From Gemmobacter caeruleus (GTDB taxonomy: Bacteria > Pseudomonadota > Alphaproteobacteria > Rhodobacterales > Rhodobacteraceae), in contig NZ_VKKX01000022.1 of assembly GCF_008271655.1 (NCBI RefSeq), forward strand, positions 434,001 through 498,000: DNA of 64,000 nt, given 5' to 3'. A program made the position numbers and the translations under genes. A model generated the notes under the pieces. The model was not told the DNA's origin. It searched no databases and worked only from the letters and a program-made list of their open reading frames with translations. The first letter of the stretch is position 1. Each line of letters begins with the position of its first letter. Of this stretch, positions 14,994-57,811 are shown piece after piece.

Positions 14994-15425
14994 TCACGAA
15001 ACCGCGCGGCGATCCCAGCCCAGCACATGATCCAGCGAGAACCGGCCCGGGCCGCGCGCGATCAGCGCAAGGAAACAGGCGGCCCAGAGGCCATGCGTCA
15101 CCCAGGCCTCGGGATAGACGAAGATCTCGATCACCGCCGTCATGCCCAACAGCGCCAGCGCCGAAAACCGCGTCGCCAGCCCCAGCACCAGCAGCACCGG
15201 CAGCGCATGTTCCGCGATGGTGGCCATTACGGCGGCCCAGTCGGAGGGGATCAGCGGCAGCGCGTATTCCTCCTTGAACAGGAACCACGTGCTGTCCTTG
15301 ATCATGAAGCCATCGACCTTCGTGCGGCCCGACATGAAGAACACCGCCGCCGGAAAAAGACGCAGCGCGAGGGCGGGCAGATCCCAAGGCAGGCGGTCGA
15401 ACAGGGCGTTGAGACGGGCGATCAT
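14994..15425 (-). CDS. DoxX family membrane protein of the bufferin operon
   Basis: A 143-residue DoxX protein with four hydrophobic helices (for example [15 protein letters not shown] and [14 protein letters not shown]). It is the last gene of a four-gene operon, overlapping the preceding DUF2063 gene by 4 bases (ATGA). The same DUF2282-DUF692-DUF2063-DoxX order is known from the gig/bufferin operons of Caulobacter and Legionella. There the DoxX member is thought to act at the membrane in the same metal-stress response; its biochemical activity is unknown. Confidence 0.88.
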
Positions 15426-16189
15426 GCGGTTTCTCCGAAGGCAAGGCCGGTCAGGGCGCCTGCCCGGGCCAGCGACAGCAGAATGGCGCCGGGGTCATGG
15501 CCCGGCTCGGCGGTGGCGGCGGCCTCGGCCGCGCGGATCAGCACGAGACCCGATTGCAGCGCGGCGACAAAGGTCGCATCGCCCGGGCCAAGCGCCCGCA
15601 CCGGCACATCGTCGCGCCGGTCGCGCAGGATCAGCGCGGTTTCGGGGCGGTTCACCTCCAGCGGCGCGGGGGTGGCGCCGGGCTGGTTCATCGCCCAGGC
15701 CGATACGGCAGCAAAGCGCGAGGGCACGATCCGCAGCGAAGGGTGCAGCGCCAGCCGCGCCCGTCCGGCATCGGCGGCGGCCTGCGACAGCGCCTCGGGC
15801 GGCAGGGGTTCGGCATCGGCGGCGTGATAAGCCTCGCCGCGGGCGAATTCGATCCGCGCCACATCGGCGACCCAGGGCAGCCCCGCCAGCGGCGGAAAGC
15901 CGGTCAGGAAATCGGCAAAGCCGCCGCCCCAGGCAAAGAGCATGGGGTTTTGCGGCCCCTGTTCGGCCAGGAAAAGCGGCGCGAGGGCTGCAAAGAATTC
16001 GGCGCCCAGGATCCGCTCCACCGCCGGAAAGCGGGCGGCCAGCGCCCGGCTCAGCGAATGGGCGACATTGTTGCGATAGACCGCGAAACGCTGCGCGGCC
16101 TCGTCCGGCGCGCGGGCGGTCACGCCCGGCGGCAGGGTGCCGGTGAACAGCCCGTCCTGAAAGAATTGCAGGAAATCAGCGTGCCGCAT
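15422..16189 (-). CDS. bufC: BufC: DUF2063 partner of the MNIO enzyme
   Basis: A 255-residue protein with the DUF2063 (HvfC/BufC N-terminal) domain: [13 protein letters not shown] at the start, then [18 protein letters not shown] and [16 protein letters not shown]. In known bufferin systems this protein binds the precursor peptide and the DUF692 iron enzyme and is needed for cysteine modification. The C-terminal half (from about residue 110) is the usual variable domain. It overlaps the DUF692 gene by 14 bases and the DoxX gene by 4, so all three are translationally coupled. Confidence 0.9.
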
Positions 16190-17012
16190 GGGCCACCCGC
16201 CGGGTCAGCACGGCGCGGGCGCGGTCGGCCTCGGCCATCAGCACCGGGAAATCCGGCACGTCATTATCCCATTCGATCAGCGTCGGCAGCGGCCCCGCCG
16301 CCGCGATCACCTCGGCATAAAGCGCCCAGACCGGATCGGCGACCGGTGTGCCATGCGCGTCGATCAGCAAGGGGCCAGAGGGCAGCTCCTCCTCGGCATG
16401 ACCGCCCAGATGGATCTCGCCCACCCGATCCAGTGGGAAATCCCGCAGATAGGCGCGCGGGTCCATGCGGTGATTGGTGCAGCTGACAAAGACATTGTTC
16501 ACATCGAGCAACAGCCCGCATCCGGTGCGGCGGCTGATCTCGGTCATGAAATCAATCTCGGGGATCGTGGATTGTTCGAACAGCACATAGGTCGAGGGGT
16601 TTTCCAGCAGCATCCGCCGGCCAAGTGCTGCCTGCACCTCGTCGATGTGATCGCAGACCAGCGCCAGAGTCTCCTCGGTATAGGGCAGCGGCAAGAGGTC
16701 ATTGAGGTAGATGCCATGGCTCGACCAGGCCAGATGTTCGGAAAAGCTTTCGGGCTGGTACAGATCGACTAGCCGCTTCAGCCGGGCCAGATGATCGCGG
16801 TCGATGCGGCTGCCGCCGATCGACAGGCCCACCCCATGCAGCGAAATCGCATAATCGGCGCGCAGGGCCTCCAGCGTGCGATGCGCGGGGCCGCCCTCGC
16901 CCATGTAATTCTCGGCATGGACCTCGAAAAACCCGAGATCGGGCCGGGTCTCGCGAATGGCGGCGAAATGTTCGGGCTTGAAGCCGATACCGGGGGTGGC
17001 GGGCAGGGTCAT
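16176..17012 (-). CDS. bufB: BufB: DUF692 multinuclear non-haem iron oxidative enzyme (MNIO)
   Basis: A 278-residue TIM-barrel enzyme of the DUF692/MNIO family, which uses a multi-iron centre and oxygen to modify cysteines in ribosomal peptides; in bufferins, cysteines become thiooxazole-type heterocycles. Metal-ligand motifs are intact: EVHAENY at residues 30-36, [11 protein letters not shown] at 57-67, then [42 protein letters not shown] and [12 protein letters not shown]. The ATG at [12 protein letters not shown] is preferred over the upstream in-frame ATG because the family starts GIG(F/L)K near residue 8. It follows the precursor gene by 83 bases on the same strand. Confidence 0.94.
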
Positions 17013-17095
17013 GGTCGGGTTCCTCCGTTTGGGCGGGGCGCACCGCCTGGGGAGAGGCGCGCCCCGATTGGGCCGGGTTTCCCCGGCCCGGCCGA

Positions 17096-17371
17096 TCACA
17101 TCGCGATCGGCTCAAGCGAGCCCTTGCCGTTCGGCGTTTCCATGGTCACGCAGGTGCCGGCGGGAACGTATTTCCACGCATTGCCCTGGAAATCCTTGGT
17201 CGCGGTGCCGGCGCAGGTGGTGCCGGGGCCGGCGGCGCAGTCGTTCTGGCCGGCCATCGCCACGCCATAGCACTTTTCCATCTCGCCCTCGGCCGAGGCC
17301 ATCGAGGCGGCCAGCGTCAGCGCGGTGGCGAGCGAGGCGGTCAGGGTCAGGGTTTTGGTCATTGCGGTCAT
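17096..17371 (-). CDS. bufA: BufA: DUF2282 bufferin-type precursor peptide (metal-binding RiPP)
   Basis: A 91-residue exported peptide. Residues 1-27 form a Sec signal peptide ending SMASA. The mature part carries four cysteines at C34, C45, C53 and C74 in the DUF2282 layout [28 protein letters not shown] and [10 protein letters not shown]. In Caulobacter, peptides of this type are modified by a DUF692/DUF2063 pair and bind copper in the periplasm; here that function is inferred from family and operon. GGAGG lies five to six bases before the first ATG (MTAMTK), which decides the start. An ECF promoter sits about 55 bases upstream. Confidence 0.92.
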
Positions 17372-17426
17372 GGTGTCCTCCGAATTGGAACGCAAGGTGT
17401 GCGACTGCCGCACCCTTGCAAAACCA

Positions 17427-17452
17427 TTCGCGGCCCGACGGGGCGGCGTTAC
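17427..17452 (-). promoter_or_regulatory. ECF (SigF-type) promoter of the bufferin operon
   Basis: On the minus strand GTAACG-N16-CGAA, identical in boxes and spacing to the promoter in front of the sigma factor gene itself. The predicted start site is near 17420, giving a leader of about 50 bases to bufA. Confidence 0.82.
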
Positions 17453-17510
17453 AGCCTCACGCTTTCGTGTTCGAAAAACAGATCATGGGCGATTTTTTTG
17501 CGGATCGCGT

Positions 17511-17536
17511 GTAACGATCTGCCCGATCGCAACGAA
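17511..17536 (+). promoter_or_regulatory. Autoregulatory ECF promoter of the sigF-nrsF pair
   Basis: GTAACG-N16-CGAA on the plus strand, the same pattern as the bufferin promoter on the other strand. The predicted start is near 17542, leaving a very short leader (under 10 bases) before the sigma factor ATG at 17550. Confidence 0.8.
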
Positions 17537-17549
17537 GATATCTACAGAC

Positions 17550-18098
17550 ATGAGTGTGACGGACGAAACGCTGGCGGGCCTGCTACGGGCGGCGAATGCG
17601 GGGGACGGGCGGGCCTATGCCCGGTTCCTGACCGCCGTCACCCCGGCATTGCGCAGCGTGGTCCGGGCCCGCGGGCGCGGCCTGGGTGCCGAGGCGCAAG
17701 AGGATGTGGTGCAGGAAGTGCTGCTTGCCATCCACCTCAAGCGCCATACCTGGCAATCCGACAGCCCGGTGAAGCCCTGGCTCTATGCCGTGGCACGTTA
17801 CAAGGTCGTCGATGCCTTCCGCCGGCTGGGTTCGGGTCGGGTGCATCTGCCGATCGAGGATTTCGCCGAAGCGCTGGAAGGCGCCCCGGCGCCAGAGCCG
17901 CTGGCCGCGCACGATGCCGCGCGGCTTTTGGGCCAGATCGACGCGCGTTCGGCCGAGATCGTGCGCGCCGTGCATCTGGAGGGCGAGGAAACCGCGCAGG
18001 TCGGTGCCCGGCTTGCGATGACCGAAGGGGCGGTGCGGGTGGCCCTGCACCGCGCGATGAAAAGGCTCGCGGCCTTGGGCCGGGGGAATGAAGGATGA
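17550..18098 (+). CDS. sigF: ECF sigma factor, SigF-like, metal/oxidative stress type
   Basis: A 182-residue group 4 sigma factor. Region 2 includes EDVVQEVLLAIHLKRHTW and KPWLYAVARYKVVDAFRR; region 4 includes RLAMTEGAVRVALHRAMKRL. It starts MSVTDETLAGLLRAANAGDG. The gene overlaps a DUF1109/NrsF membrane anti-sigma gene by 4 bases and is divergent from the bufferin operon, the same context as Caulobacter SigF. Identical promoters on both sides indicate that it activates itself and bufA. It has no clear ribosome binding site, which fits its very short predicted leader. Confidence 0.9.
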   Translation: MSVTDETLAGLLRAANAGDGRAYARFLTAVTPALRSVVRARGRGLGAEAQEDVVQEVLLAIHLKRHTWQSDSPVKPWLYAVARYKVVDAFRRLGSGRVHLPIEDFAEALEGAPAPEPLAAHDAARLLGQIDARSAEIVRAVHLEGEETAQVGARLAMTEGAVRVALHRAMKRLAALGRGNEG

Positions 18099-18733
18099 AA
18101 ACCGAGGATCTGATCACCCGACTGGCCGCCGAGGCCCCTGCCACCGCCCCGATCTCGGGCGGCCGTGTCGTCATGGCGGGGCTGCTGGCGGGGCTTCCCG
18201 CGCTGGCCTTGCTGCTGGGGCTTCTGGGGGTGCGGCCGGATTTCATGGCGGCGATGGCGGTGCCGGTCACCACCTTGAAGATGGTTCTGCCGGCGGCGAT
18301 CGCGCTACTGGCCGGTGGCGCCGCGCTGCGGCTGATGCGCCCCGAGGGGCGGGTGGGCCTGGCGGGGCCGGCGCTGGCCGGGCTGGCGCTGGTTGCGCTG
18401 GCACTGGTCGTCTGGCGGCTGGTGGCGCTGTCGGCGCCGCAGATCCCGGTGGCGCTGATGGGGCGCACCGCGCCGCAATGCCTGTTTCTGCTGCTCGGGC
18501 TGGCGACGGGGCCGTTTCTGGCGGTGTTCTGGGGCCTGCGCGCCGGGGCCAGCACACGCCCCGCGCTGACCGGCGGGCTGGCCGGGCTGGCGGCGGGCGG
18601 GGCCGCGGCCACCCTTTATGCGCTGCATTGCCCCGAGGACGATCCGCTGTTCTTCGTGTTCTGGTATGGCGGCGCCATCCTGCTGTCGGGTCTGGCCGGC
18701 ATGGTGGCCGGGGCGCGCGGGCTGCGCTGGTAA
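18095..18733 (+). CDS. nrsF: NrsF-type (DUF1109) membrane anti-sigma factor
   Basis: A 212-residue protein with a cytosolic N terminus (MKTEDLITRLAAEAP) and six hydrophobic helices. It has exactly two cysteines, C129 (APQCLFLLLG) and C179 (ALHCPEDDPLFF), 50 residues apart. As I recall, Caulobacter NrsF has two essential cysteines with the same spacing that sense metal or redox stress and release SigF. The start codon overlaps the sigma factor stop (ATGA), so the two are made in a fixed ratio. Confidence 0.9.
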   Translation: MKTEDLITRLAAEAPATAPISGGRVVMAGLLAGLPALALLLGLLGVRPDFMAAMAVPVTTLKMVLPAAIALLAGGAALRLMRPEGRVGLAGPALAGLALVALALVVWRLVALSAPQIPVALMGRTAPQCLFLLLGLATGPFLAVFWGLRAGASTRPALTGGLAGLAAGGAAATLYALHCPEDDPLFFVFWYGGAILLSGLAGMVAGARGLRW

Positions 18734-18736
18734 CCC

Positions 18737-19801
18737 CTAGCCCGCCCCGGCGATGGACAGCGCCTTCAGCACGGCCCAGACCGGCAGGCCGGGGCGCAGC
18801 GCCATGGCGGCGCAGGATCGCGCGGTGATCCGCGCCAGCAGCGGCGCGCCGGCGCAATCCAACCGCACCGTCACCCCCGGCCCCTGCCCGTCGGGCACCA
18901 GCGCCGTCACCGTCACCGGCAGGATGTTCAGCGCCGACAGCCCCTCGGGCCGGGTCAGCGCCAGCGTGATATCCGCCGCCCGCACCCGCAGCCGCATCGC
19001 CACGCCCGGCACCAGCGCCTGCGGCAGCCAGAGCGGCCCGGCGGCGGTGTCGATCCGGGTCAGCCCGTCGGGGTCACGCCCGGCGACCCGGCCCGCCAGC
19101 AACGCCCCCGCCTCGCGCCCACCCAGCGTTTCGGCCAGCGCCGGATCGGCCAGCAGATCGGCCACCGGCCCCGCCGCGCGCAGCCGCCCGCCCTCGATCA
19201 TCACCAGCGTCGTGGCCAGCCGCACCACCTCGTCCAGCGCATGACTGACCAGCAGCATGGGCAGGCCGGTCTCGTAGCGCAGCCGCTCCAGACAGGTCAT
19301 GATCTCGGCCCGGCGCGGGGCATCCAGCGCGGTCATCGGCTCGTCCAGCAGCAACAGGCGCGGCGCGGCCAGAATGGCGCGGCCAAGCGCCACGCGCTGC
19401 GCCTCACCGCCCGACAGCGTGGCGGTGCGGCGGCCCAGGATCGGGCCGATGCCGAGAATTTCGATCAGCCGCGCCTCCGGCAGGCTGGGCCGGTCGGCCG
19501 CGAAACGCTGACCATAGCGCAGATTGGCCGCCACGCTCAGATGCGGAAACAGCCGTGGTTCCTGAAACACGCAGGCGATGCGGCGGCGATGCGGGGGCAG
19601 GTTCAACCCGGTCGCGCTGTCGAACAGCGGCCGGTCGCTGTGGATCCGCCCGGCATCGGGCGTGGCCAGCCCCGCCACCGCGCGCAGGATGCTGGTCTTG
19701 CCCGCGCCCGAAGGGCCGAACAGCGCGGTCACCCCGCCCGGGGCGGCAAAGGCCAGATCGAGGTCGGGCCGGGACGAGCGGATCGCCACCTCCAGCATCA
19801 T
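18737..19801 (-). CDS. modC: Molybdate ABC transporter ATP-binding protein
   Basis: The 354-residue ATPase of the molybdate importer. Walker A GPSGAGKTS near residue 30, Q-loop FQEPRLFPHLSV, signature LSGGEAQRVALGRA, Walker B LLLLDEPMTALD and the switch histidine in SHALDE are complete. The C-terminal third is a TOBE/molybdate-binding domain (SALNILPVTVTALVPDG). The start is the ATG pair overlapping the modB stop; the larger open frame upstream simply reads through modB out of frame. Confidence 0.95.
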   Translation of the reverse strand: MMLEVAIRSSRPDLDLAFAAPGGVTALFGPSGAGKTSILRAVAGLATPDAGRIHSDRPLFDSATGLNLPPHRRRIACVFQEPRLFPHLSVAANLRYGQRFAADRPSLPEARLIEILGIGPILGRRTATLSGGEAQRVALGRAILAAPRLLLLDEPMTALDAPRRAEIMTCLERLRYETGLPMLLVSHALDEVVRLATTLVMIEGGRLRAAGPVADLLADPALAETLGGREAGALLAGRVAGRDPDGLTRIDTAAGPLWLPQALVPGVAMRLRVRAADITLALTRPEGLSALNILPVTVTALVPDGQGPGVTVRLDCAGAPLLARITARSCAAMALRPGLPVWAVLKALSIAGAG

Positions 19802-20496
19802 CGCCTCCCCACCCGCCGCGCGATGCGCCGCGCCAGCAGCTCTGACAGGCCAAGCGCCGTCATCGCGATGGCGATCGACACCAGCACCAGGCGCAGCGCC
19901 GCCCCCTCGCCCTCGGGCACCTGAAGAAAGGTATAGATCGCCAGCGGCAGGGTCTGGGTCTGGCCCGGAATATTGGCGACAAAGGTGATCGTCGCGCCAA
20001 ATTCGCCAAAGGCCTTGGCGAAGGCCAGCACGGCGCCCGCCAGCAGCCCGGGCAGGATCAGGGGCAGCGTCACCGTGGCAAAGACCGCAAGGCGGCTGGC
20101 GCCCAGGGTGGCGGCGGCCTCCTCCAGCCGGGGGTCCACGGCCTCCAGGCTCAGCCGGATCGCGCGCACCATCAGCGGAAAGGCCATGACGGCGGCGGCC
20201 AGCACCGCCCCGGTCCAGCGAAAGGCCAGCGTCACGCCCAGCACCTCGTGCAGCCAGCCGCCGATCACGCCGCGCCGCCCGAAGGCCAGCAACAGCAGAT
20301 AGCCCGTCACCACCGCCGGCAGGATCAGCGGCAGATGCACCAGCCCGTTCAACAGCCCATGCCCCGGAAAGCGCCGCCGCGCCAGCAGCCAGGCGACGGC
20401 AAGGCCGAAGGGCAGGCTCAGCCCCGTCGCCCAAAGCGAGACCCGCAGCGAAAGCGCCAGCGCCGTCAGCGCCTCGGGGGGAAGCCAGCCTGCCAT
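19798..20496 (-). CDS. modB: Molybdate ABC transporter permease
   Basis: A 232-residue inner-membrane permease with five hydrophobic helices and the EAA loop VDPRLEEAAATLGASR near residue 130. It begins MAGWLPPEALTALALSL. Its ATG immediately follows the modA stop codon, and its stop overlaps modC, so modABC is a tightly coupled operon. Confidence 0.95.
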   Translation of the reverse strand: MAGWLPPEALTALALSLRVSLWATGLSLPFGLAVAWLLARRRFPGHGLLNGLVHLPLILPAVVTGYLLLLAFGRRGVIGGWLHEVLGVTLAFRWTGAVLAAAVMAFPLMVRAIRLSLEAVDPRLEEAAATLGASRLAVFATVTLPLILPGLLAGAVLAFAKAFGEFGATITFVANIPGQTQTLPLAIYTFLQVPEGEGAALRLVLVSIAIAMTALGLSELLARRIARRVGRR

Positions 20497-21246
20497 TCAG
20501 GGCGCCGAAAAGCCCTGCGCGGCAAAGATCGCCTGCGCGGACGGGGCGGCCAGCGCCGCCAGAAAGGCGCGATCCGCCGCATCGGCCGCGCCCGTCAGCA
20601 GCGCGGCGGGATAGGTGATCGGCGGATGGCTGTCGGCCGGAAAGGTGGCCAGCACCTTGACCCCGGCTTCGGCAATCGCGTCACTGGCATAGACGATGCC
20701 CAGCGGCGCCTCGCCCCGCGCGACCAGCCGCAGCGCGCCGCGCACATCCTCTGACTGCACGACCTGCGGCGCGACGGCGGACCAGAGGCCCAGGCTTTCC
20801 AGCGCCGCCTTGCCATATTGCCCGGCCGGCACGGCATCCACCGTCGCCATCGACAGCCTGCCCCCCGCCAGCAGCCCCGCCAGATCGGCACCCGGCGCCA
20901 GATCGACCGGCGCGGCCCCGGGCGCGCCGACCAGAACCAGACGATTGCCCAAGAGATCGCGCCGCATGCCCGCCGCCACATCGCCGCCCGCCTGAACCCT
21001 GTCCATCCAGGCGGTCGAGGCCGAGACAAAGATATCGGCCGGCGCCCCTTGCAGGATCTGTGTGGCCAGCTTGTTCGACCCGCCATAGGAGATCGTCACC
21101 CTGTCGCCGGTCGCCGCCTGCCAATCCTGCGCGATCTGGTCGAGCGCGGTTTTCAACGAGGCCGCGGCAAAGACCACCACCTCATCGGCCCGCGCGCCCG
21201 CAGGCGCCGCCACGAGCGCGGCGATCACGATCAGTTCGCGCCACAT
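20497..21246 (-). CDS. modA: Molybdate ABC transporter substrate-binding protein
   Basis: A 249-residue periplasmic protein with a signal peptide cut near residue 20 (LVAAPAGARA-DE). The oxyanion-site motifs are FAAASLKTALDQIA at the mature N terminus and SYGGSNKLATQI with FVSAST downstream; VPAGQYGKAALE is also characteristic of ModA. It captures molybdate or tungstate for ModBC. A palindromic ModE-like site lies directly upstream. Confidence 0.95.
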   Translation of the reverse strand: MWRELIVIAALVAAPAGARADEVVVFAAASLKTALDQIAQDWQAATGDRVTISYGGSNKLATQILQGAPADIFVSASTAWMDRVQAGGDVAAGMRRDLLGNRLVLVGAPGAAPVDLAPGADLAGLLAGGRLSMATVDAVPAGQYGKAALESLGLWSAVAPQVVQSEDVRGALRLVARGEAPLGIVYASDAIAEAGVKVLATFPADSHPPITYPAALLTGAADAADRAFLAALAAPSAQAIFAAQGFSAP

Positions 21247-25148: not shown

Positions 25149-26675
25149 TCAGCGGCGGATCTGCGTGACGGTATCGACCGGCACCGGCTGCCAGGGGCCT
25201 TCGGTGCCGTCGGGCCAGATCACCCTTGCCTCGGCCTGGTTGGCGGCACCAAGGCCGAAATGCAGGGGCGCGAAGGTGCCGCCGGCATGGCCGCCCCCCA
25301 CCGTCACCTCTTGCCGCTGCACGCGGCCGGCGGCGCGCAGTTCGACCCAGCCATTGATCGCGTTGCGGTTCGGCGCGCCCTCTTGCAGCGGGTCGATCGC
25401 CACCCAATGCCCACCCGGTCCGGCATTGCGCCAGATCTCGGCCGGGCCGTTGCGATTGACCACCACGAGATCAAGCCGGCCATCGGCGTTCAGATCGACC
25501 ACCGCCGCGCCGCGCGCCTGTAGCCCCGAGGCCACGCCGGCGCGGTCGCCCGCTTCGGTGAAGGTGCCATCCGCGCCTTGCAGCAGCAGGTTGTTGGGAT
25601 CCTGTTCGGCGAAATCCGGCATTTCCCAGACATTGCCCTTGGCCACGAACAGATCGGTGAATCCGTCATTGTTCACATCGGCAAAGGCCGGATGCCAGGC
25701 GGTCGAGGGGCGGGGATCGCCCCCGGTATAGGGCCGATGCGCCGTCACGCCCCGCGCCCAGGCGGTATCGTCATATTGCGGCAGCGCCCCCGGCCCCGGC
25801 GCCTTGAGGTGCTGGAGCTTGTTATCGGCCATGGAGGTCAGGAAATATTCCGGGTAGCGGTCGCCATCGAGATCGGCCCCGGCAATGCCCATGCCCCAGA
25901 TGCGCAAGCGCTGCCAGCCCTCGGCCTCGGAATAGAGGCGCGGCGGGGTGGCGGGGGCGACATGCCAGAGCTGTTCCTGCCCGCCCTTGTAATATTCCCG
26001 GTCGTTCGACACCCGCAGCGCCGGCTGGCCCGAGCGGTTCCAGTCGGTGAACAGCATGGAAAGCGCGCAATAGCTGGGGGTCAGCGGGATTGGGGCGGCA
26101 AAGCGGCGCCCATCGGGGCGCAAGAGCCAGTTCTCGGTGCAGGAGCCCCAGGGAAAGGCCTCTTCCGCGCGGTTGATGTAATTGCCGAAGGCAAGCGTCG
26201 GCCAGGGGGCACCGGCCTCCCACGTGGCGGCGAAGGCGGTGGTCCAGGCGTCGCCGCCCTGGAGGCCCCAGGCCTCGTTCGCGCGTTCAAAGCGGCAATT
26301 GCCGAGGCCGCGCAGCACGACATTTTCGCCCACGCGCAGCAGGACCAGATCGGTCACAGCGTCGGCGTCGATATCGAGCGCATAGGCGCCCGCGACATCG
26401 GTCATTTCCACCCCGGCCGGGATGGGCGTAAAACGCAGCGCGCCTTCGGTGCTGTCATTGCGGAACAGCGCCGCCGGGGCGGTGCCGCCGGCCATCACCA
26501 GTTCGGGCTTGCCATCGCCCGAACAATCAAAGGCCGCGACGCCGCCGCCGACCATGAAGGTCCATTCGCCGCTGAAGCGATGCGCCACCGCGGCGGGTTC
26601 GGCCCGGAATTGCGGCACCGCCGGTTCCTGGGCCAGGACGGGCGTCGCCACCAGCAGGAGGGGCAGCCATTTCAT
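25149..26675 (-). CDS. Secreted CRTAC1-type FG-GAP/VCBS repeat protein with ASPIC/UnbV tail
   Basis: A 508-residue exported protein: signal peptide at residues 1-15 (LPLLLVATPVLA), then a beta-propeller of FG-GAP repeats with calcium-loop motifs DLDGDRYPEYF, DVNNDGFTDLF and DLNADGRLDLV, and a C-terminal ASPIC/UnbV domain (GGGHAGGTFAPLHFGLG). Function is unknown; relatives are proposed adhesion or enzyme-partner proteins. Its ATG overlaps the stop of the haloperoxidase-like gene by 4 bases (ATGA), so the two proteins probably work together outside the cytoplasm. It is the last gene of the extended xylose operon. Confidence 0.85.
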   Translation of the reverse strand: MKWLPLLLVATPVLAQEPAVPQFRAEPAAVAHRFSGEWTFMVGGGVAAFDCSGDGKPELVMAGGTAPAALFRNDSTEGALRFTPIPAGVEMTDVAGAYALDIDADAVTDLVLLRVGENVVLRGLGNCRFERANEAWGLQGGDAWTTAFAATWEAGAPWPTLAFGNYINRAEEAFPWGSCTENWLLRPDGRRFAAPIPLTPSYCALSMLFTDWNRSGQPALRVSNDREYYKGGQEQLWHVAPATPPRLYSEAEGWQRLRIWGMGIAGADLDGDRYPEYFLTSMADNKLQHLKAPGPGALPQYDDTAWARGVTAHRPYTGGDPRPSTAWHPAFADVNNDGFTDLFVAKGNVWEMPDFAEQDPNNLLLQGADGTFTEAGDRAGVASGLQARGAAVVDLNADGRLDLVVVNRNGPAEIWRNAGPGGHWVAIDPLQEGAPNRNAINGWVELRAAGRVQRQEVTVGGGHAGGTFAPLHFGLGAANQAEARVIWPDGTEGPWQPVPVDTVTQIRR

Positions 26676-47702: not shown

Positions 47703-47859
47703 AGCGTTTCGGATGGTCGTCGTAATCGCGGGTCAGGATACGGTTCGCATCGCCCTGCGGATCGTCGAACTGGCCGCGCTTCAACGCCCAGAAAAATGCC
47801 ACAAGCCCGATGCCGCCCAGAAACAGCGAGACAGGAATGAGGATGGTCAGGATTTCCAT
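47701..47859 (-). CDS. ccoS: cbb3 oxidase assembly protein CcoS
   Basis: A 52-residue single-pass membrane protein: MEILTILIPVSLFLGGIGLV followed by AFFWALKRGQFDDPQGDANR, the standard CcoS pattern. It is needed for cofactor insertion (haem b and CuB) into CcoN. Its ATG shares a base with the ccoI stop, completing a ccoGHIS operon. Confidence 0.95.
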   Translation of the reverse strand: MEILTILIPVSLFLGGIGLVAFFWALKRGQFDDPQGDANRILTRDYDDHPKR

Positions 47860-50078
47860 TATTTCAGCCTCAGCGCGTTCAGCGTGACCGAGATCGACGA
47901 CAGCGACATGGCCAGCGCCGCCGCCAGCGGGGTGGCGGCCCCGACCAGCGCCAAAGGCACGGCAACCACGTTGTAAAGTGCCGAAATCGCAAAGTTTTCC
48001 TTGATGCGGCGGCTGGATTGCCGGGCAATGCGCAGGGCGTCGGCGATCGGCGCCATGTCCTGCCCCAGCAGCACGATATCCGAGGCCGTGCGCGCCGCGT
48101 CCAGCGCCGAGGCCGGCGAGATGGACACATGAGCCGCCGCCAGCGCGGCGGTGTCGTTCAGCCCGTCGCCCACCATCAGCACCCGATGGCCCTGCGCCGT
48201 CAGATCGGCCACCAGCGCGGCCTTTTCGGCCGGCAGCACCCCCGCGCGCCAATCGGTGATGCCCAGCTTTTCGGCCAGTGCCGCCACCGCGCCGGGCGTA
48301 TCGCCCGAAACCAGCCGGATCGCCTTGCCCTGCGCGCGCAGGGCGCCCACGGCCTCGGCCGCGCCGGGGCGCAGGCGGTCGGTAAAGGTAAAGGGCCGCG
48401 CCGCGACTTCGCCGGTGCAAAGCCAGGTGGCCGTCACGCCCGGGTCACGATCCGCGCCGCACCAACCGGCACGGCCCAGCCGCACGACCTGCCCGCGCCA
48501 CCGCCCTTCGACGCCGTAGCCCGGCACCTCTTGCAGGTCGCTGACCGGCGCGGGGTGCAACCCCGCCGCCCGGGCCGCCTGCGCCAGCGCGAGCGCCAGC
48601 GGATGCGACGACGCCTCGGCCAGGGCCAGCGCCACTTCGGCGGCCTGACGCGGGTGGTCGCCCAGATTGGTCAGTTCGGGCGTGCCGAGCGTCAGCGTGC
48701 CGGTCTTGTCGAAGACGACGGTATCCACCTCGGCCAGGCGCTCCAGCGCGGTGCCATGCTTGATGAGCAGCCCCTTGCGGAACAGCTTGCCGCTGGCCGC
48801 CGTCACCACCGCCGGCACCGCAAGGCCAAGCGCGCAGGGGCAGGTGATGATCAGCACCGCCGCCGAGATGTTGACCGCATAGCGCAGATCGCCCCCGGTC
48901 GCCCACATCCAGTAGCCAAAGGCGCTGAAGGACAGCAGATGCACCAGCGGCGAATAGGCGCGCGAGGCACGTTCGGCGAGGCTGGTGTAACGGGTCTTGG
49001 CGCTTTCGGCCACGGCGACCAGATCGGCCATGCGGTGCAGGCTGGAATCGCGCCCCGCCGCCGTGACCCGCAGGGTGAGCGGGCCGGTCAGGTTGACCTC
49101 GCCCGCGCTGACGCGGGTATCGGGGCCGGCCCAGACCGGCAGGCTTTCCCCGGTCAGCAACGCGCGATCCACCTCGGAGGTGCCCTCGACCACCACGCCA
49201 TCGACCGGCATCCGCCCGCCGGGGCGCACGCGCACCAGATCGCCCACGGCCAGATCGGTGATCGACACGGTTTCCTCGCCCGCCGCGGTGATGCGCAGGG
49301 CGCGCGGCACCTCGAGCGCGGCCAGTTCCTCGGCCGCAGAACGCGCCACGGCACGGGTGCGGTGATCGAGATAGCGCCCCAGCAGCAGGAAGAACGCCAG
49401 CATCACCGCCGCATCGAAATAGGCGTGATGGCCGGAATGCAGGGTTTCGAACACCGAAATCGACGAGGCCAGGATCAGCGCCAGGCTGATCGGCACATCC
49501 ATGCCCAACCGCCCGGCACGCAGGCTGGCCCAGGCGGATTTGAAGAAGGGCTGGCCCGCGAAAACCACGGTCGGCAGCGCAATCGCCCCGGAAATCCAGT
49601 GGAACAGGTCGCGCGTCGCATCCCCTGCCCCGGACCAGACCGCAACAGAGAGCAGCATGACGTTCATCATGGAAAAGAACGCGACACCCAGCCGCATCAG
49701 CAGATCGCGGCCCTGGCGGTCGGTCTCGGTCGCGGAAAGCAGGCCCGCGTCCAGTTCATAGGCCTCATAGCCGGTGGCATTCAGCGCGGCGACCAGCGGC
49801 GCGGCCTCGACCCCCGGTTCGGCATCGACCGAAACCCGCTTCAGCGTCAGGTTCACCCGGGCCGAGCGCACGCCCGGCTGCCGCTCCAACGCCTGTTCCA
49901 CGGTCGAGATGCAGGCCGCGCAATGCGCCGTCGGAATCGACAGGACCAGCCGCGCATCGGCGGCCGCGCCCGCCCGGGCAAGCTGTTCGGCCGAAGGCGC
50001 CGCCACGCAGGCCGGACAGGCCGAGGCCATCAGCCTGCCCTCCTCCTCCTGCACGGGAATGCGCTCTGCGAGGGTCAT
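47859..50078 (-). CDS. ccoI: Copper-exporting P1B ATPase for cbb3 assembly (CcoI/FixI)
   Basis: A 739-residue P-type ATPase. The N terminus carries a cysteine-rich segment (SACPACVAAP) and a heavy-metal-associated domain (PTAHCAACISTVEQAL). The membrane metal site is CPC in TCPCALGLAVPAV, the phosphorylated aspartate is in VFDKTGTLTLG, and the hinge is MVGDGLNDTAAL. Members of this class move copper to the periplasm for CcoN assembly rather than for detoxification. It lies between ccoH and ccoS. Confidence 0.96.
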   Translation of the reverse strand: MTLAERIPVQEEEGRLMASACPACVAAPSAEQLARAGAAADARLVLSIPTAHCAACISTVEQALERQPGVRSARVNLTLKRVSVDAEPGVEAAPLVAALNATGYEAYELDAGLLSATETDRQGRDLLMRLGVAFFSMMNVMLLSVAVWSGAGDATRDLFHWISGAIALPTVVFAGQPFFKSAWASLRAGRLGMDVPISLALILASSISVFETLHSGHHAYFDAAVMLAFFLLLGRYLDHRTRAVARSAAEELAALEVPRALRITAAGEETVSITDLAVGDLVRVRPGGRMPVDGVVVEGTSEVDRALLTGESLPVWAGPDTRVSAGEVNLTGPLTLRVTAAGRDSSLHRMADLVAVAESAKTRYTSLAERASRAYSPLVHLLSFSAFGYWMWATGGDLRYAVNISAAVLIITCPCALGLAVPAVVTAASGKLFRKGLLIKHGTALERLAEVDTVVFDKTGTLTLGTPELTNLGDHPRQAAEVALALAEASSHPLALALAQAARAAGLHPAPVSDLQEVPGYGVEGRWRGQVVRLGRAGWCGADRDPGVTATWLCTGEVAARPFTFTDRLRPGAAEAVGALRAQGKAIRLVSGDTPGAVAALAEKLGITDWRAGVLPAEKAALVADLTAQGHRVLMVGDGLNDTAALAAAHVSISPASALDAARTASDIVLLGQDMAPIADALRIARQSSRRIKENFAISALYNVVAVPLALVGAATPLAAALAMSLSSISVTLNALRLK

Positions 50079-50081
50079 GGT

Positions 50082-50537
50082 TCAGCCTTTCACGAACAGA
50101 TCCAGCCGCTGCTGGAACAACGTGCCATCCGGGGCCTCGGCCTTGACATGCAGCATCCATTTGCCCGGGTCCAGCATGACCGGGGCGACAAAGCGCCCGG
50201 CCTCGCGGCGGAATTCAGGCCGCAGATCGGACGCGGCCGACGTGGTGCGCCCGAGCAGCACATCCAGATTGCGCAAATCGGCCGGCAGGCCCTGCGCATC
50301 GGTGAAGGTCAGCGTCAGCCCGCTGCCGGGCTGGTACTCCTCTTGCAGGGTCCAGCCCAGGGCCGACTGGGCATCGCGCGCGGCCTCGAATTCCTGTGAG
50401 GCGACGTAAGAATTTTCGACCTCCAGCCCCGGGAAGGTGGAAATGGCCTTGTAGGCCATCAGCACATTCACCCCGATGATCACCGCAAAGGCCCCGGCGG
50501 TGAAGACAAACACCTGACGACCCGTGATCTGCCCCAT
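50082..50537 (-). CDS. ccoH: FixH/CcoH cbb3 assembly protein
   Basis: A 151-residue membrane-anchored protein. One N-terminal helix (VFVFTAGAFAVIIGVNVLMA) is followed by the motif NSYVASQEFEAARDAQSALG and a beta-rich periplasmic domain, typical of FixH/CcoH. The start is either this ATG (MGQITGRQ) or one three codons upstream; the AGGAAAAGGA ribosome binding site is spaced better for the former. It is 3 bases ahead of ccoI. Confidence 0.93.
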   Translation of the reverse strand: MGQITGRQVFVFTAGAFAVIIGVNVLMAYKAISTFPGLEVENSYVASQEFEAARDAQSALGWTLQEEYQPGSGLTLTFTDAQGLPADLRNLDVLLGRTTSAASDLRPEFRREAGRFVAPVMLDPGKWMLHVKAEAPDGTLFQQRLDLFVKG

Positions 50538-50598
50538 GTCCTGCATTCCTTTTCCTGTCGGTCGCGGCGGGGGGCCTGGCGCCCGCCGCCCTGGGCCG

Positions 50599-52041
50599 TC
50601 ACTCGGCCTTGCCGTTGAATACCGTGTCGTGATGCACCCGCGCCTCCTTGCCCGAGGCGGGCGGCACTGCATCCATCACCCACAGGCGCACCTCGGTCCG
50701 TTCCGCATGGGCGGCCCCGCTATCGGGCGCGGCCTCAAGATACAGCCGGGTCGAGAGCGTGTCATTGGCCGGCACCGTCAGCACGTTATTCTCTGCCCCT
50801 TCCAGCCGCAGCGTCAGCCTTTCGCCGGCGGTCACGGTCACCGCGTAATCATGCGCCTCGCCGAGCTTGTTGCGCAAGCGGATGTCATAGGCATTGCGGA
50901 TCGTGCCATCGCTGAGCGTCACGAAAAGCGGGTTGCGGATTGGCGTCACGTTGATGTCGATATCCGAGCGCAGGAACAGCGCCACGATCAGCCCGACGCC
51001 GACCCCGGACCACAGCACGGTATAAAGCACGGTGCGCGGGCGGAAGATGTGTTTCCAGATCGGCCGGGGCGCCTGGCCCGCGCGTTCGCGGGTTTCATCG
51101 GTCAGCGCGATATAGTCGATCAGGCCGCGGGGCTTGCCGACCTTGTCCATCATGTCGTTGCAGGCGTCGATGCACAGGCCGCAGGTGATGCAGGCCATCT
51201 GCTGCCCGTTGCGGATGTCGATCCCCATCGGGCAGACGTTCACGCAGGCCATGCAGTCGATGCAATCGCCCAGCTGTTCGGCGCCTTCCTGCTTGCGATG
51301 CTTGCCGCGCGGCTCGCCCCGCCAGTCGCGATAGGCGATGGTCAGCGTGTCCTCGTCCATCATCGCGGCCTGGATGCGCGGCCATGGGCAGGCATAGATG
51401 CAGACCTGTTCGCGGAAGAACCCGCCAAACAGGAAGGTCGTCGCGGTCAGGATCAGGATGGTGGTATAGGCGATCGGATGGGCATTGCCGGTGACCAGAT
51501 CCCGGAGCAGCGTCGGCGCATCGGTGAAATAGAACACCCAGGCCCCGCCCGTCGCGACGGCGATCAGGAACCACAGCGTCCATTTCAGCGCGCGCTTGCG
51601 GATCTTTTCCGCATCCCATTTCTGGCGATAGAGGCGCAGCCGCGCATTGCGGTCGCCCTCGACCCAGCGTTCGACCAGAATCATCAGGTCGGTCCAGACG
51701 GTCTGCGGGCAGGCATAGCCGCACCAGACTCGCCCGGCGGCCGAGGTGAACAGGAACAGCCCCAACCCCGCCATGATCAGCAGCCCCGCGACGAAATAGA
51801 ATTCGTGCGGCCAGATCTCGATCATGAAGAAGAAAAAGCGCCGGTTCGCCATGTCCAGCAGGATCGCCTGATCCGGCAAGGCCGGCCCGCGATCCCAGCG
51901 AATCCAGGGGGCAAGGTAATATGCCCCCAGCATCAGGGCCATGAGCCACCATTTCAGCGTGCGAAAATTGCCCTTCACGCGCTTGGGGAAAACCGGCTCG
52001 CGCGCGGCATAAAGGGACGGTTCGGTATCTTGGCTGGACAC
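50599..52041 (-). CDS. ccoG: CcoG (RdxB/FixG) iron-sulfur membrane protein, cupric reductase of cbb3 assembly
   Basis: A 480-residue protein with several membrane helices, the cysteine motifs WCGYACPQTVWTD and CIYACPWPRIQAA, and two 4Fe-4S ferredoxin motifs (CIDCMACVNVCPMGID and CITCGLCIDACN). A C-terminal beta domain follows. Known CcoG proteins reduce Cu(II) for delivery to CcoN. The start is a GTG beginning MSSQDTEPSLYA with CGGAG eight bases ahead; the upstream frame has no support. An FNR box lies 71 bases upstream of the start. Confidence 0.94.
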   Translation of the reverse strand: MSSQDTEPSLYAAREPVFPKRVKGNFRTLKWWLMALMLGAYYLAPWIRWDRGPALPDQAILLDMANRRFFFFMIEIWPHEFYFVAGLLIMAGLGLFLFTSAAGRVWCGYACPQTVWTDLMILVERWVEGDRNARLRLYRQKWDAEKIRKRALKWTLWFLIAVATGGAWVFYFTDAPTLLRDLVTGNAHPIAYTTILILTATTFLFGGFFREQVCIYACPWPRIQAAMMDEDTLTIAYRDWRGEPRGKHRKQEGAEQLGDCIDCMACVNVCPMGIDIRNGQQMACITCGLCIDACNDMMDKVGKPRGLIDYIALTDETRERAGQAPRPIWKHIFRPRTVLYTVLWSGVGVGLIVALFLRSDIDINVTPIRNPLFVTLSDGTIRNAYDIRLRNKLGEAHDYAVTVTAGERLTLRLEGAENNVLTVPANDTLSTRLYLEAAPDSGAAHAERTEVRLWVMDAVPPASGKEARVHHDTVFNGKAE

Positions 52042-52111
52042 GGATAGGCTCCGGTTGACTCTCGTGCTTGCTCGTCTGGCGCAGGTATGGGGCGACGAAC
52101 GGACCCGCGCT

Positions 52112-52125
52112 TTGACCTGTATCAA
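52112..52125. promoter_or_regulatory. FNR box upstream of ccoG
   Basis: TTGAC-CTGT-ATCAA. A class II start would fall near 52077 on the minus strand, with CATACC as a -10-like sequence at the right distance. Confidence 0.8.
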
Positions 52126-52249
52126 AAATTGCATCGGCGATATATCTTCGCCATGCGTCATTTCGCGCCGGCCATGCTGCACGCGCAGGACCACTTTTTG
52201 ACCCGGACCCGTGCCGCTGACATGCTGCCCCGAGGGCAGGAGGACGGGC

Positions 52250-52930
52250 ATGACCGGAAAACGCAACGCGGCACAGACCGAGGAATTCAGCGCGGCCGAA
52301 ATCGGGGCGCTTGCACATTTGTATCGGGGCGAGGTCTATCGCTCAACCGTGTGGCGCACGCGACTGGACACGACGACGAACTGGTCGGTGGTCACGCTGG
52401 GGGTGGCGCTGTCGATCACCTTCAGCTCGCCCGATGCCTCGCCCCTGCCGCTGGTGCTGGTGGGGGTGCTGATCCTGTTCTTTCTGGCGCTCGAGGCGCG
52501 GCGCTATCGGTTTTTCAACGTCTGGCGCGCCCGCGCCCGCTGGATCGAGACGCATTTCTATGTGCCGATGCTGATCGACGGCGACCTGCATACCGAAGAT
52601 GACTGGCAGACGATCCTGGCCCGCGACTATCGCGCACCCCAATACCATGTCAGCTATCTGACCGCGGTCGCGCGGCGGGTGCGGTCGAATTACCTGTGGA
52701 TCCTGCTCATTCAGGCGCTGGCCTATATCGGCAAGCTGCTGGTCCATCCGGCGCCGGTGCGCGACTGGACCGAATTTGTCGGCCGCGCCGATATCGGGCC
52801 GGTTTCCGGTCTGGTCGTGCTGGGGTTGGGGGCGGTCTATATCCTGACCTGGGCGGGGCTGGCGCTTTGGGTCACCCATGCAGATACGCGGCGCAGCAAG
52901 GTGCGCGGGCGCGGCATCTCGATGGGGTGA
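52250..52930 (+). CDS. DUF2270 family membrane protein
   Basis: A 226-residue protein with four hydrophobic helices (WSVVTLGVALSITF, LPLVLVGVLILFFLAL, YLWILLIQALAYIGKLL, GLVVLGLGAVYILTWAGLAL) and the conserved LEARRYRFFNVWRARARWIE and NYLWILLIQ segments of DUF2270. Function is unknown. GGAGGACG precedes the ATG. It is divergent from ccoG; the FNR box lies between them, about 125 bases before this gene, so a role under low oxygen is possible. Confidence 0.85.
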   Translation: MTGKRNAAQTEEFSAAEIGALAHLYRGEVYRSTVWRTRLDTTTNWSVVTLGVALSITFSSPDASPLPLVLVGVLILFFLALEARRYRFFNVWRARARWIETHFYVPMLIDGDLHTEDDWQTILARDYRAPQYHVSYLTAVARRVRSNYLWILLIQALAYIGKLLVHPAPVRDWTEFVGRADIGPVSGLVVLGLGAVYILTWAGLALWVTHADTRRSKVRGRGISMG

Positions 52931-54278: not shown

Positions 54279-55160
54279 TTATTCGCCGCCGCCCAGACCA
54301 TGCACATAGACCGCCACCGCGCGGATCTCGTCTTCCGAGAGGCGGACGTTCCAGTTCGGCATCACGCCGAAACGGGCATTGGTCACGGAATCCGTCAGGG
54401 TGGCGCGGTCACCGCCATAGAGCCAGACCGCATCGGTCAGGTTCGGCGCGCCCTGTGCCCGGTCGCCGGTGCCGTCTTCGGCATGGCAGGCCGAACAATT
54501 GTCGGCAAAGATCTGCGCCCCGGCCGTGGCCTTGGCCGCGTCGTGATCCTGCTTGGACAGTTGCAGCACATATTCCACCACGTCACCGATCTGCGCCGGC
54601 TCCAGGATGCCATCCGCGCCGAATTTCGGCATTTCCGAATAGCGCGCATCGGCGTCATCGGTGTTGCGGATGCCGTGGGTGATGGTGGTGTGGATGGCCT
54701 CCATGTCGCCACCCCAGAGCCAGTCATCATCCAGCAGGTTGGGATAGCCGACATTGCCGGCCGCCCCCGCCCCGTGGCACTGCGCGCACCAGGTCTTGAA
54801 CACGGCGGCGCCGGCCGATTTGGCATAGCCGTCCAGTTCAGGGTCGGTGGCAATTGCGGTCAGATCGGCCGCGACCAGCTTGGCCTTGATCGGCGCATTG
54901 GCATCGTCAAAACGCTTGATCTCCTCGGCCACGGCAAGACGGGTATCCCCCGCCGCGCTGGTGCCCCAGAGCCCCTGCGTCGCCCCGCTGATCAGCGGCC
55001 AGGCGGGATAGGCGATGCAATAGCCGATGGACCAGATGATCGTCAGGTAAAAGGTCCACAGCCACCAGCGCGGCATCGGATTGTCGAATTCCTGAATGCC
55101 GTCCCAGTCATGGCCGGTGGTGGCCACCTCACCCGGTTTCTTCACTTGTTTGGCGCACAT
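54279..55160 (-). CDS. ccoP: cbb3 oxidase dihaem subunit CcoP
   Basis: A 293-residue membrane-anchored dihaem cytochrome c. One N-terminal helix ([20 protein letters not shown]) follows [13 protein letters not shown], the standard CcoP start. Haem motifs are [13 protein letters not shown] and [13 protein letters not shown], each with a later methionine ligand (YSEMPKFG and FGVMPNWN). It passes electrons from soluble cytochromes toward CcoO and CcoN. Confidence 0.97.
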
Positions 55161-55163
55161 GGT

Positions 55164-55358
55164 TCACGCCTCCTTGTAGTTGCGGGCCGCTTCCGCAGCG
55201 GGACGCTTTTCGTTGCGGAAGATCGAGTTGGCGGCTTCGTCCTGAAGCTTGCCGCTGCCCGGGCGGAAGGCATAGACCACCACCCCCACGAACAAAGCGG
55301 TCATCAGGATCAGCATCCAGCTATCGGCAAAGTGGCGAAGGAAGGAATAGGTATCCAT
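55164..55358 (-). CDS. ccoQ: cbb3 oxidase small subunit CcoQ
   Basis: A 64-residue single-helix protein (WMLILMTALFVGVVVYAFRP) with the usual CcoQ N terminus MDTYSFLRHFAD. It stabilises the complex. It sits between ccoO and ccoP with 3 bases to ccoP. Confidence 0.94.
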   Translation of the reverse strand: MDTYSFLRHFADSWMLILMTALFVGVVVYAFRPGSGKLQDEAANSIFRNEKRPAAEAARNYKEA

Positions 55359-55368
55359 GCCCCCCTCC

Positions 55369-56094
55369 TCAGCGGTTCGGGTCGGGCTGGAAGGTCGAGA
55401 AATCGACCATCGTGCCCAACACTTGCAGATAAGCCACCAGGGCGTCCATCTCGGTCAGCGCGGCCTGCCCGTCGAAATTGCGGACCTGCGCCTTGGGATA
55501 GCGGGCCAGCAACCCTTCGGTATCGGCATTCGGATCGGCCTGGGCCACGAAATCGGCCTTGCCGTTTTCCATCATCTCGTCCGAATAGGGCACGCCCACC
55601 ACGCGGTTGGCCCACATGCTGTCGCCGATCAGTTCCGGCTCCAGTTCATGAGTCATCAGATGCGCGTATTTCGGCATCACCGATTCCGGCACCACGGATT
55701 GCGGGTTGATCAGGTGATCGACATGCCATTCGTCCGAATAGCGGCCGCCGACGCGGGCCAGATCCGGCCCGGTGCGTTTCGACCCCCACTGGAACGGATG
55801 GTCATACATCGATTCCGCCGCCAGGCTGTAATGGCCATAGCGTTCGACCTCATCCCGCATCGGGCGGATCATCTGGCTGTGGCAGACATAGCAGCCTTCG
55901 CGAACATAGATCTCGCGCCCGGCCAGTTCGAGCGGGCTGTAGGGGCGCACCCCTTCAACCTTCTCGATGGTGTTTTCGAGGTAGAACAGCGGCACGATCT
56001 GCACCAGACCGCCGATCGTCACCACGAGGAAGGACAGAACGAGCAGCAGCGTCGCATGCGTCTCGATGGCCTTGTGTTTGTCAAGAAAAGCCAT
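55369..56094 (-). CDS. ccoO: cbb3 oxidase monohaem subunit CcoO
   Basis: A 241-residue membrane-anchored cytochrome c. The N-terminal helix ([20 protein letters not shown]) is followed by the haem motif [20 protein letters not shown] and a later axial methionine in VMPKYAHL. It begins [14 protein letters not shown] as is usual. It lies 12 bases downstream of ccoN. Confidence 0.97.
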
Positions 56095-56106
56095 GCTTGC
56101 CCCTCC

Positions 56107-57714
56107 TCATTCCGCCGGGACGAAGTCGTTCGCGTTGACCGGCGCCTTGGCCGGCTGCGCACGAACGGTCATCACGAGGTTGTAGCACATGATCAGCGCC
56201 CCGATCAGGAACATCAGACCACCCGTGCCGCGCACCACATACATCGGGTATTTCGCGGCCACCGTGTCGGCGAAAGCGTTTACGAGGAACCCGTTCGCAT
56301 CCACTTCGCGCCACATCAGGCCCTCCATGATGCCGGTCACCCACATCGAGGCGGCGTAAAGCACGATCCCGATGGTGGCGAGCCAGAAGTGCCAGCTGAC
56401 CAGACGCAGCGAATAAAGCCGCTCGCGGTTCCACAGGCGCGGCACCAGGAAATAGAGCGCGCCGAAGGTGATCATGCCGTTCCAGCCAAGCGCGCCGGAA
56501 TGGACGTGACCGATGGTCCAGTCGGTATAATGCGACAGCGAGTTCACCGCCTTGATCGACATCATCGGGCCTTCAAAGGTGGACATGCCGTAAAAGCCGA
56601 CCGACACCACCATCATGCGGATGATCGGATCGGTGCGCAGCTTGTCCCAGGCGCCCGACAGCGTCATCAGGCCGTTGATCATGCCACCCCAGGACGGCAT
56701 CCACAGCATGACCGAGAAAACCATGCCCAGCGTCGCAGCCCAATCGGGCAGCGCGGTATAATGCAGGTGGTGCGGACCGGCCCAGATATAGAGGAAGATC
56801 AGCGCCCAGAAGTGGATGATCGACAGCTTGTAGCTGTAGACCGGGCGTTCCGCCTGTTTCGGCACGAAGTAATACATCATGCCCAGGAAGCCCGCGGTCA
56901 GGAAGAAGCCCACGGCGTTGTGGCCATACCACCATTGCGTCATCGCGTCCTGCACGCCGCTGAACAGCGACACCGACTTGGACGAGAACATGCTGACCGG
57001 AATCGCCAGGTTGTTCACCACATGCAGCATGGCCACGGTGATGATCATCGACAGCAGGAACCAGTTCGCCACATAGATGTGGGGTTCCTTGCGCATGATC
57101 AGCGTGCCCATGAAGACCAGCAGGAACGACACCCAGACGACCACGATCCACCAGTCGATATACCAGACGGTCTCGGCATATTCCTTGCCTTGCGTGCCGC
57201 CCAGCACATAGGAGGTCGCGGCCAGCACGATCATCAGTTGCCAGCCCCAGAACACGAACCAGCCCAGATTGCCGCCCCACAGCCGCGTGGCGCAGGTGCG
57301 CTGCACGATGTAGAAGGCCGACATGATCAGGGCATTGCCGCCAAAGGCGAAAATCACCGCCGAGGTGTGCAGCGGACGCAGGCGCCCGAAGTTCAGGATG
57401 CCATCCACGCCCGGAATGTTGAGCGACGGAAAGGCAAGCTGGAAGGCGATGATGACACCGACCAGAAAGCCGACGACGCCCCAGAAGGCCGTCGCGATCA
57501 CGCCGGCGCGCACGACGCCGTCGTTATAGGTGTTGCGGTCAACCACCACCGCCGGTTCATACATGCGCCGCAACACCCAGATGAAGGTGATGGCAGCCGC
57601 AAGCATGACGACGATCGCGTTCACCGTATAGGCGAGGTCATGCCCGTATTGGGCGGCAATCGCGGCAAAGACCGCGATCGCGCCCAGCACGACCAATTTA
57701 ACGTAATCCCACAT
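56107..57714 (-). CDS. ccoN: cbb3 oxidase catalytic subunit CcoN
   Basis: A 535-residue haem-copper oxidase subunit (C family) with about twelve helices, low-spin haem b and the high-spin haem b3-CuB site. Diagnostic pieces include [20 protein letters not shown], the [15 protein letters not shown] CuB segment and the [15 protein letters not shown] region. The start [11 protein letters not shown] is chosen over an ATG ten codons upstream because it begins immediately before the first helix. It heads ccoNOQP, with an FNR box about 100 bases upstream. Confidence 0.97.
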
Positions 57715-57811
57715 TTTGCGTCCCTTCGTCTTGGCCCGATCCACCGGTCAACGCGAGTCGTCCGGGCACTTTTTGACCATTCCGCTTTCGCAGAACACGG
57801 CCTGTCAAACC

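Follow-up and report, generated by a model that had tools for sequence, protein, structure and literature searches.

A bufferin-1 biosynthesis locus with a probable SigF/NrsF switch in Gemmobacter caeruleus

A 64,000-nucleotide stretch of the Gemmobacter caeruleus genome (contig NZ_VKKX01000022.1, positions 434,001 to 498,000; hereafter the window) contains, at window positions 14994-18733, a complete bufferin-1 (gig) locus in which bufABC-doxX is divergent from sigF-nrsF. With a probability that we put at roughly 85%, this locus is an operon for bufferin-1 (captophorin) biosynthesis that is governed by its cognate SigF/NrsF switch. The reading is supported by family models, by synteny, by promoter sites and by parallels in Caulobacter and Sinorhizobium, and the initial annotation, made from sequence alone, had already proposed it; family models and coordinates place all six of the genes it named at this locus. 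The genes, their motifs, the promoter sites and their conservation were established here directly, whereas bufferin chemistry, metal binding, the inducer and SigF release would be as described in Caulobacter. The locus is a well-formed but ordinary example of a known bacterial gene set.

The bufferin genes and the anti-sigma pair

The four genes of the bufferin operon lie on the minus strand. The first, bufA (17096-17371), encodes a bufferin-1 precursor of 91 amino acids (PF10048, DUF2282; 88.3 bits against a cut-off of 22.4). It is followed by bufB (16176-17012), for an MNIO (DUF692) bufferin maturase of 278 amino acids (PF05114, 351 bits; NCBIfam NF050167 MNIO_BufB, 380 versus 310 bits), by bufC (15422-16189), for a DUF2063-type MNIO partner protein of 255 amino acids (PF09836, 76 versus 27 bits), and by doxX (14994-15425; PF07681, 62 bits), with which the operon is taken to end. 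The plus strand carries sigF (17550-18098), for an extracytoplasmic function (ECF) sigma factor of the SigF/ECF16 type (182 amino acids; Sigma70_r2 and r4_2; NCBIfam NF009165, 205 versus 198 bits), and nrsF (18095-18733), for a six-helix anti-sigma factor (PF06532, 150 versus 26.8 bits). The description of the bufferin genes as an overlapping operon is correct for bufB/bufC (14 bp) and bufC/doxX (4 bp) but not for bufA and bufB, which are 83 bp apart with the ATG start of bufB; an alternative GTG at 17099 would produce an overlap with bufA. DUF2282, MNIO and NrsF are each represented by one gene in the whole genome and, with a single DUF2282 and a single MNIO gene, the host has no second bufferin cluster.

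Related loci were collected by scanning a genome collection of 84,980 species, which gave at least 592 pattern matches. A BufB relative is encoded at no fewer than 571 of these, from which the best 80 loci were kept. The nearest relatives among these best 80 of at least 571 are in Gemmobacter lutimaris (82% in the best segment) and Frigidibacter. The initial annotation had called for a search for conserved synteny, and the same divergent arrangement of sigF-nrsF and bufA occurs in 49 of the 80 loci; the two units are colinear in 6, partial in 4 and without sigF-nrsF in 21, the last two counts possibly being inflated by short contigs. A flavin oxidoreductase gene next downstream of doxX was considered as an operon member and rejected, its only relative among the 80 loci being located upstream of bufA and not after doxX. 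In 19 of the 80 loci, mostly rhizobial, bufB is preceded by a tandem pair of bufA-like frames, which may share one maturase.

BufA has its four cysteines (C34, C45, C53 and C74) exactly where the initial annotation put them, and none of the four is missing from any of 99 related sequences, to which each of the 80 loci contributed at most two. The hydrophobic N-terminus of BufA ends in ASA and is a predicted signal peptide, as judged by eye. In the PDB, BufB is related to 3bww, 8hci_D (TglH) and MbnB chains. At least 95% of its 80 relatives retain H59, E92, H93, E137, N138, D170, H201, D218, H220, E247 and D249, residues of a kind that we take to be metal ligands and a catalytic acid. PDB sequence searches with BufC and BufA gave no credible match. 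An AlphaFold2 model of BufC (mean predicted local distance difference test score, pLDDT, 95.5) had three PDB matches below E 0.001: 8hi7_A from a TglHI complex (E 5e-7, TM 0.61, 265 columns), 8hci chain A, and the DUF2063 protein NGO1945 (3dee; E 1e-5, TM 0.54, 229 columns). Because the DUF692 chain of these TglHI entries is 8hci_D, chain A of 8hi7 and 8hci was taken as TglI. BufC may have an RRE-type domain fused to DUF2063; the matches to 8hi7_A and 3dee, at moderate TM values of 0.54-0.61, apply to the whole model and not to the RRE part alone.

NrsF was described as a DUF1109-type anti-sigma factor with six helices and only two cysteines, and both the helices and the cysteines were recovered. 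The cysteines are C129 and C179, both kept in 57 of 57 related sequences, and the predicted structure (mean pLDDT 92.5) has six membrane-length helices, at residues 22-44, 57-80, 90-111, 126-148, 156-176 and 184-209. With a cytoplasmic N-terminus, the order of the helices would place Cys129 where helix 4 reaches the periplasm and Cys179 in the periplasmic loop between helices 5 and 6, in agreement with C131 and C181 of Caulobacter NrsF (PMC3511200). A structure search of the PDB with the NrsF model found no solved relative (best E 1.2). An ECF sigma gene beside a six-helix PF06532 gene with two conserved cysteines identifies the pair as SigF/NrsF (ECF16). Chance can be excluded as a source of the two cysteine patterns, because those of BufA are kept in 99 of 99 sequences and those of NrsF in 57 of 57.

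Sigma-F-type promoter sites and msrPQ

The 178 bp interval between bufA and sigF holds two exact GTAAC-N17-CGAA sites, one in each direction: one before bufABC-doxX (17427-17452, minus strand) and one before sigF-nrsF (17511-17536, plus strand). The 64 kb window holds no other match to GTAAC-N16..18-CG(A/T)A. Predicted promoters of the GTAAC(C)-N16-CGAA type thus appear to be present on sigF's own operon and on its targets. The wide pattern was chosen post hoc, after CGTA had been seen in related loci that gave no match; with it, each of the 49 divergent loci shows one or more sites within the 750 bp that precede the first bufA, facing bufA in 33 loci and sigF in 48. The wide pattern also occurs in 5 of the 6 colinear, 3 of the 4 partial and 8 of the 21 loci without sigF-nrsF, and the remainder of the 80 loci contains 6 such sites in 904,358 bp, counting both strands. 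The divergent loci were counted with a narrower pattern as well. Of these 49 loci, 16 have the narrower CGA(A/T) pattern on the side of bufA and 24 on that of sigF.

Across the 3.99 Mb genome, GTAAC-N17-CGAA occurs seven times, twice at the bufferin locus and once before msrP. A reversed-pattern control is more frequent than the pattern itself, both for the exact form (17 versus 7) and in a wider genome scan (101 versus 15). Therefore the raw genome count is not evidence, and the position of a site is. The 15 matches of the wider scan include the three regulon sites; the other 12 were assigned as nine within long frames of coding-like bias, two in promoter position and one as neither, by a crude sort that flagged all three regulon sites as in-frame too. 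The two in promoter position are GTAAC-N17-CGTA sites, at C23:471-496 before a 146-codon frame and at C1:545374-545399 before a 423-codon frame.

The genome has a single msrP, and the third exact site (C12:135469-135494) ends 35 bp upstream of its start; this site, absent from the initial annotation, has the same form as the two at the bufferin locus. The sole PF00174 gene of the genome was identified as msrP by a score of 456 bits against a cut-off of 207, and the next, overlapping gene as msrQ (170 versus 130 bits); site and genes cover C12:135469-136456 and beyond. We compared this region in 120 genomes drawn from the family, in which MsrP was found in 98, NrsF in 18 and DUF2282 in 85. Among the 18 NrsF genomes, nrsF is within about 3 kb of a DUF2282 gene in 13 and on a different contig in 2, and DUF2282 was not found in 3. 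The regions upstream of msrP were examined in 17 NrsF-positive genomes (the 13 of the draw with both NrsF and MsrP and 4 from the genus) and in 70 NrsF-negative genomes with MsrP (67 of the 85 such genomes of the draw, best matches first, and 3 of the genus). In one NrsF-positive genome (G083) the MsrP relative is just 52% identical and is a possible paralogue.

With msrP starts estimated from the match, and a site defined as lying within roughly 150 bp upstream of msrP and differing from the pattern at no more than one of nine positions, sites were present in 7 of 17 NrsF-positive and 0 of 70 NrsF-negative genomes (p = 3.3e-6, a value not corrected for shared descent). Counting the sister pair L136/L138 once gave 6 of 16 (p = 1.7e-5), and the same table is obtained when the host genome is left out. 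Exact CGAA sites were found in 3 of 17 NrsF-positive genomes, against 0 of 30 (p = 0.042) or 0 of 70 (p = 0.006) NrsF-negative ones. A first pass within the family, for exact sites anywhere upstream of msrP, had given 2 of 13 and 1 of 27, respectively, the latter site being 709 bp away. Each of the four one-mismatch sites reads CGTA, a form that rhizobial bufferin loci also have.

MsrP needs a molybdenum cofactor. Molybdate-type ABC transporter genes adjoin nrsF at window positions 18737-21246 (binding protein 20497-21246; the others were recognized by eye). A link between this transporter and MsrP was considered and is taken as coincidence, as ModA/ModB relatives (E up to 1e-20) occur in the flanks (up to 6 kb) of none of the 80 related loci.

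The initial annotation had also suggested that the peptide may protect the periplasmic copper supply for respiration by a cbb3 oxidase assembled from the same chromosomal region. The window does contain ccoNOP (54279-57744) and ccoG/ccoI-type genes (47859-52266, named by domain), and copper is handled by both systems. However, ccoNOP is 37-41 kb from bufB and the ccoI/ccoG genes are 29-34 kb from nrsF, and no sigma-F site is near the cco genes, the only two of the window being at the bufferin locus. The genus comprises 11 species in the genome collection. In none of its seven other nrsF-positive genomes are nrsF and ccoN on one contig. One of these genomes has 7 contigs; the rest are drafts, which weakens the test. 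Three further genomes of the genus have ccoN without nrsF. Likewise, flanks of up to 6 kb around the 80 related loci contain no CcoN relative and CcoI-like frames in 2. With distance, promoter sites and genus neighbourhood all failing to support it, we consider supply or protection of copper for the cbb3 oxidase to be very improbable. In the seven-contig genome (G123; nrsF at C6:20533-21111), nrsF is on a contig apart from both ccoN matches, perhaps a second replicon. Elsewhere in the window, positions 25149-26675 encode a 508-amino-acid protein with FG-GAP repeats and a UnbV/ASPIC domain.

Proposed mechanism and comparison with known systems

The module may be read as a regulon against copper and thiol stress in the periplasm, which would chelate copper and, in this host, also repair oxidized methionine. 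At rest, SigF would be kept at the inner membrane by NrsF, until copper or some other thiol-reactive stress in the periplasm acts on the Cys129/Cys179 pair of NrsF. SigF, once freed, would then fire the two divergent promoters of the locus and the third before msrPQ. BufB and BufC would convert the two central cysteines of pre-BufA into thiooxazoles in the cytosol; after export of pre-BufA by the Sec pathway, its outer cysteines would form a disulfide. Mature BufA would sequester periplasmic copper, while MsrPQ would repair methionine sulfoxides.

The closest parallel is in Caulobacter crescentus (CC3252-CC3257), which shares nrsF-sigF with bufABC-doxX, GTAAC-type promoters on both units, the NrsF cysteine pair and the presence of msrPQ in the regulon. 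Caulobacter SigF is reported to control the gig cluster, MsrPQ and another buf cluster; copper induces this regulon in either cell type and in either medium, and a mutant in sigF is sensitive to copper (PMC8224329). The host differs in having no second bufferin cluster, in the base after GTAAC, which is G here and C in the published consensus (GTAACC-N16-CGAA, PMC3511200), and in its NrsF, which is under the NCBIfam equivalog cut-off for that protein. In Sinorhizobium meliloti, the ECF16 sigma factor RpoE7, with EcfR7, drives the same two divergent units; its targets SMb20527-SMb20530 are a membrane-annotated, a DUF692, a DUF2063 and a fourth gene, and the two printed RpoE7 promoters read GTAAC-N17-CGAA (PMC6180224). 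The gig operon of Cupriavidus metallidurans and the GIG operon of Legionella pneumophila are described as metal-responsive and gig-type in gene set; they are from other lineages and were compared by description and not by sequence. Haemophilus oxazolin, fontiphorin and gonophorin, which are also captophorins, are made by an MNIO and a DUF2063/RRE partner that form thiooxazoles on a precursor peptide, but their precursors have EGKCG repeats and are not DUF2282 proteins.

An intact operon could also produce a peptide that serves another metal, such as gold, cadmium or chromate, or that stays unmodified. Gig operons are indeed named for their induction by gold (PMC12452194, PMC8224329), and SigF of Caulobacter responds to Cr and Cd (PMC3511200). 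Against this, Caulobacter bufferin-1 is reported to chelate both Cu(I) and Cu(II) through thiooxazoles (PMC12452194), and the BufB of the host is above the bufferin maturase cut-off; we regard this alternative as improbable.

A stronger challenge to copper as the signal comes from Brucella melitensis, in which an ECF16 sigma factor with an NrsF-family anti-sigma factor (B0022/B0023) controls bcrXQP, with bcrX induced by hypochlorous acid together with MsrPQ homologues (PMC8315932). By analogy, the switch would sense reactive chlorine or another oxidant and not a metal, and the bufferin would be one of several periplasmic protection proteins. The Brucella anti-sigma factor has cysteines with identical numbers, C129 and C179 (PMC8315932), the NrsF cysteines are invariant among the related sequences, msrPQ has a sigma-F site here, and a Caulobacter sigF mutant is impaired under stationary-phase oxidative stress (cited in PMC8224329). 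On the other hand, DUF2282 and DUF692 do not occur in the Brucella paper, the available sections of which mention no bufferin (PMC8315932); the bufferin-bearing Caulobacter regulon is responsive to Cr, Cd and Cu but not to generators of reactive oxygen species (PMC3511200, PMC8224329); and Sinorhizobium RpoE7 is unresponsive to H2O2 (PMC6180224). We judge oxidant sensing to be unlikely, if clearly the most credible of the alternatives to a copper-responsive bufferin operon.

Several observations weigh against the proposed switch and operon as a whole. BufC is under the NCBIfam HvfC cut-off (45 versus 142 bits), DoxX under that for HvfX (57 versus 80 bits), and NrsF under the AntiSigF_NrsF equivalog cut-off (85.9 versus 300 bits), and the identities of bufC, doxX and nrsF are therefore drawn from Pfam matches, synteny and fold. 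Caulobacter sigF and DUF692 mutants are reported to be no more sensitive to dichromate or Cd, and chromate induction of Caulobacter msrP to be just partly SigF-dependent (PMC3511200). Cupriavidus gig is reported to have no effect on copper resistance (cited in PMC8224329). In the available sections on Sinorhizobium, RpoE7 reporters do not respond to Cd or chromate any more than to H2O2, and the targets are its own operon and bufferin-type genes, with no msrP listed (PMC6180224). Since 10 of the 17 NrsF-positive genomes also have no msrP site, msrPQ is not a fixed member of the regulon. The comparison of upstream regions instead suggests that msrPQ is a part-time member of the bufferin SigF regulon.

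Switched and unswitched bufferin loci

Sigma factor and NrsF genes have been reported in Buf1 but not Buf2 clusters (Antoine and colleagues, PMC12452194). In the family draw, 70 of the 85 DUF2282 genomes are without NrsF. Of these 70 loci, 20 were read, and all contain bufA, bufB and bufC. None of the 20 has a SigF/NrsF match within the 6-7 kb taken, and none has a sigma-F site before bufA, although three have one elsewhere. About 15 adjoin a likely threonyl-tRNA synthetase gene (thrS-like), confirmed by Pfam in one and recognized by eye in the others.

A BufB tree of 101 sequences places the unswitched loci, 20 in number, with one other row in a supported group of 21 (100/100), whereas the host BufB is within a supported group of 32 (99/96), of which 29 are with sigF. 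The presence of sigF is clustered on this tree, albeit imperfectly (at least 8 changes, versus 32.6 for shuffled labels), and the group nearest to the unswitched lineage consists of two Ancylobacter loci with sigF. The bufferin loci of the family thus appear to be split into switched and unswitched lineages. Among the matches listed from the open-licence PubMed Central literature, neither this split nor part-time membership of msrPQ is stated for the family.

These observations suggest, tentatively and at somewhat less than even odds, that the bufferin and SigF/NrsF belong to a single inherited regulon for periplasmic defence, joined in part of the lineage by msrPQ, which would carry a sigma-F promoter only where NrsF is present. 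A separate, often thrS-linked bufferin lineage would be free of sigma-F control, so that one kind of copper-binding peptide would be found under two regulatory regimes. The shared signal would then be the oxidation of thiols or methionine in the periplasm, and not metal itself.

Bufferins were named only recently and, in the literature covered, the grouping of SigF, a bufferin and MsrPQ has experimental support in Caulobacter alone. To this are added here comparative support for part-time msrPQ membership and for the division of the family's bufferin loci into switched and unswitched. The host genome and its relatives provide a comparative case in which copper chelation and methionine repair can share one switch, and the many related bacteria that have bufferin genes but no switch offer a useful counterpart for testing what the switch senses.

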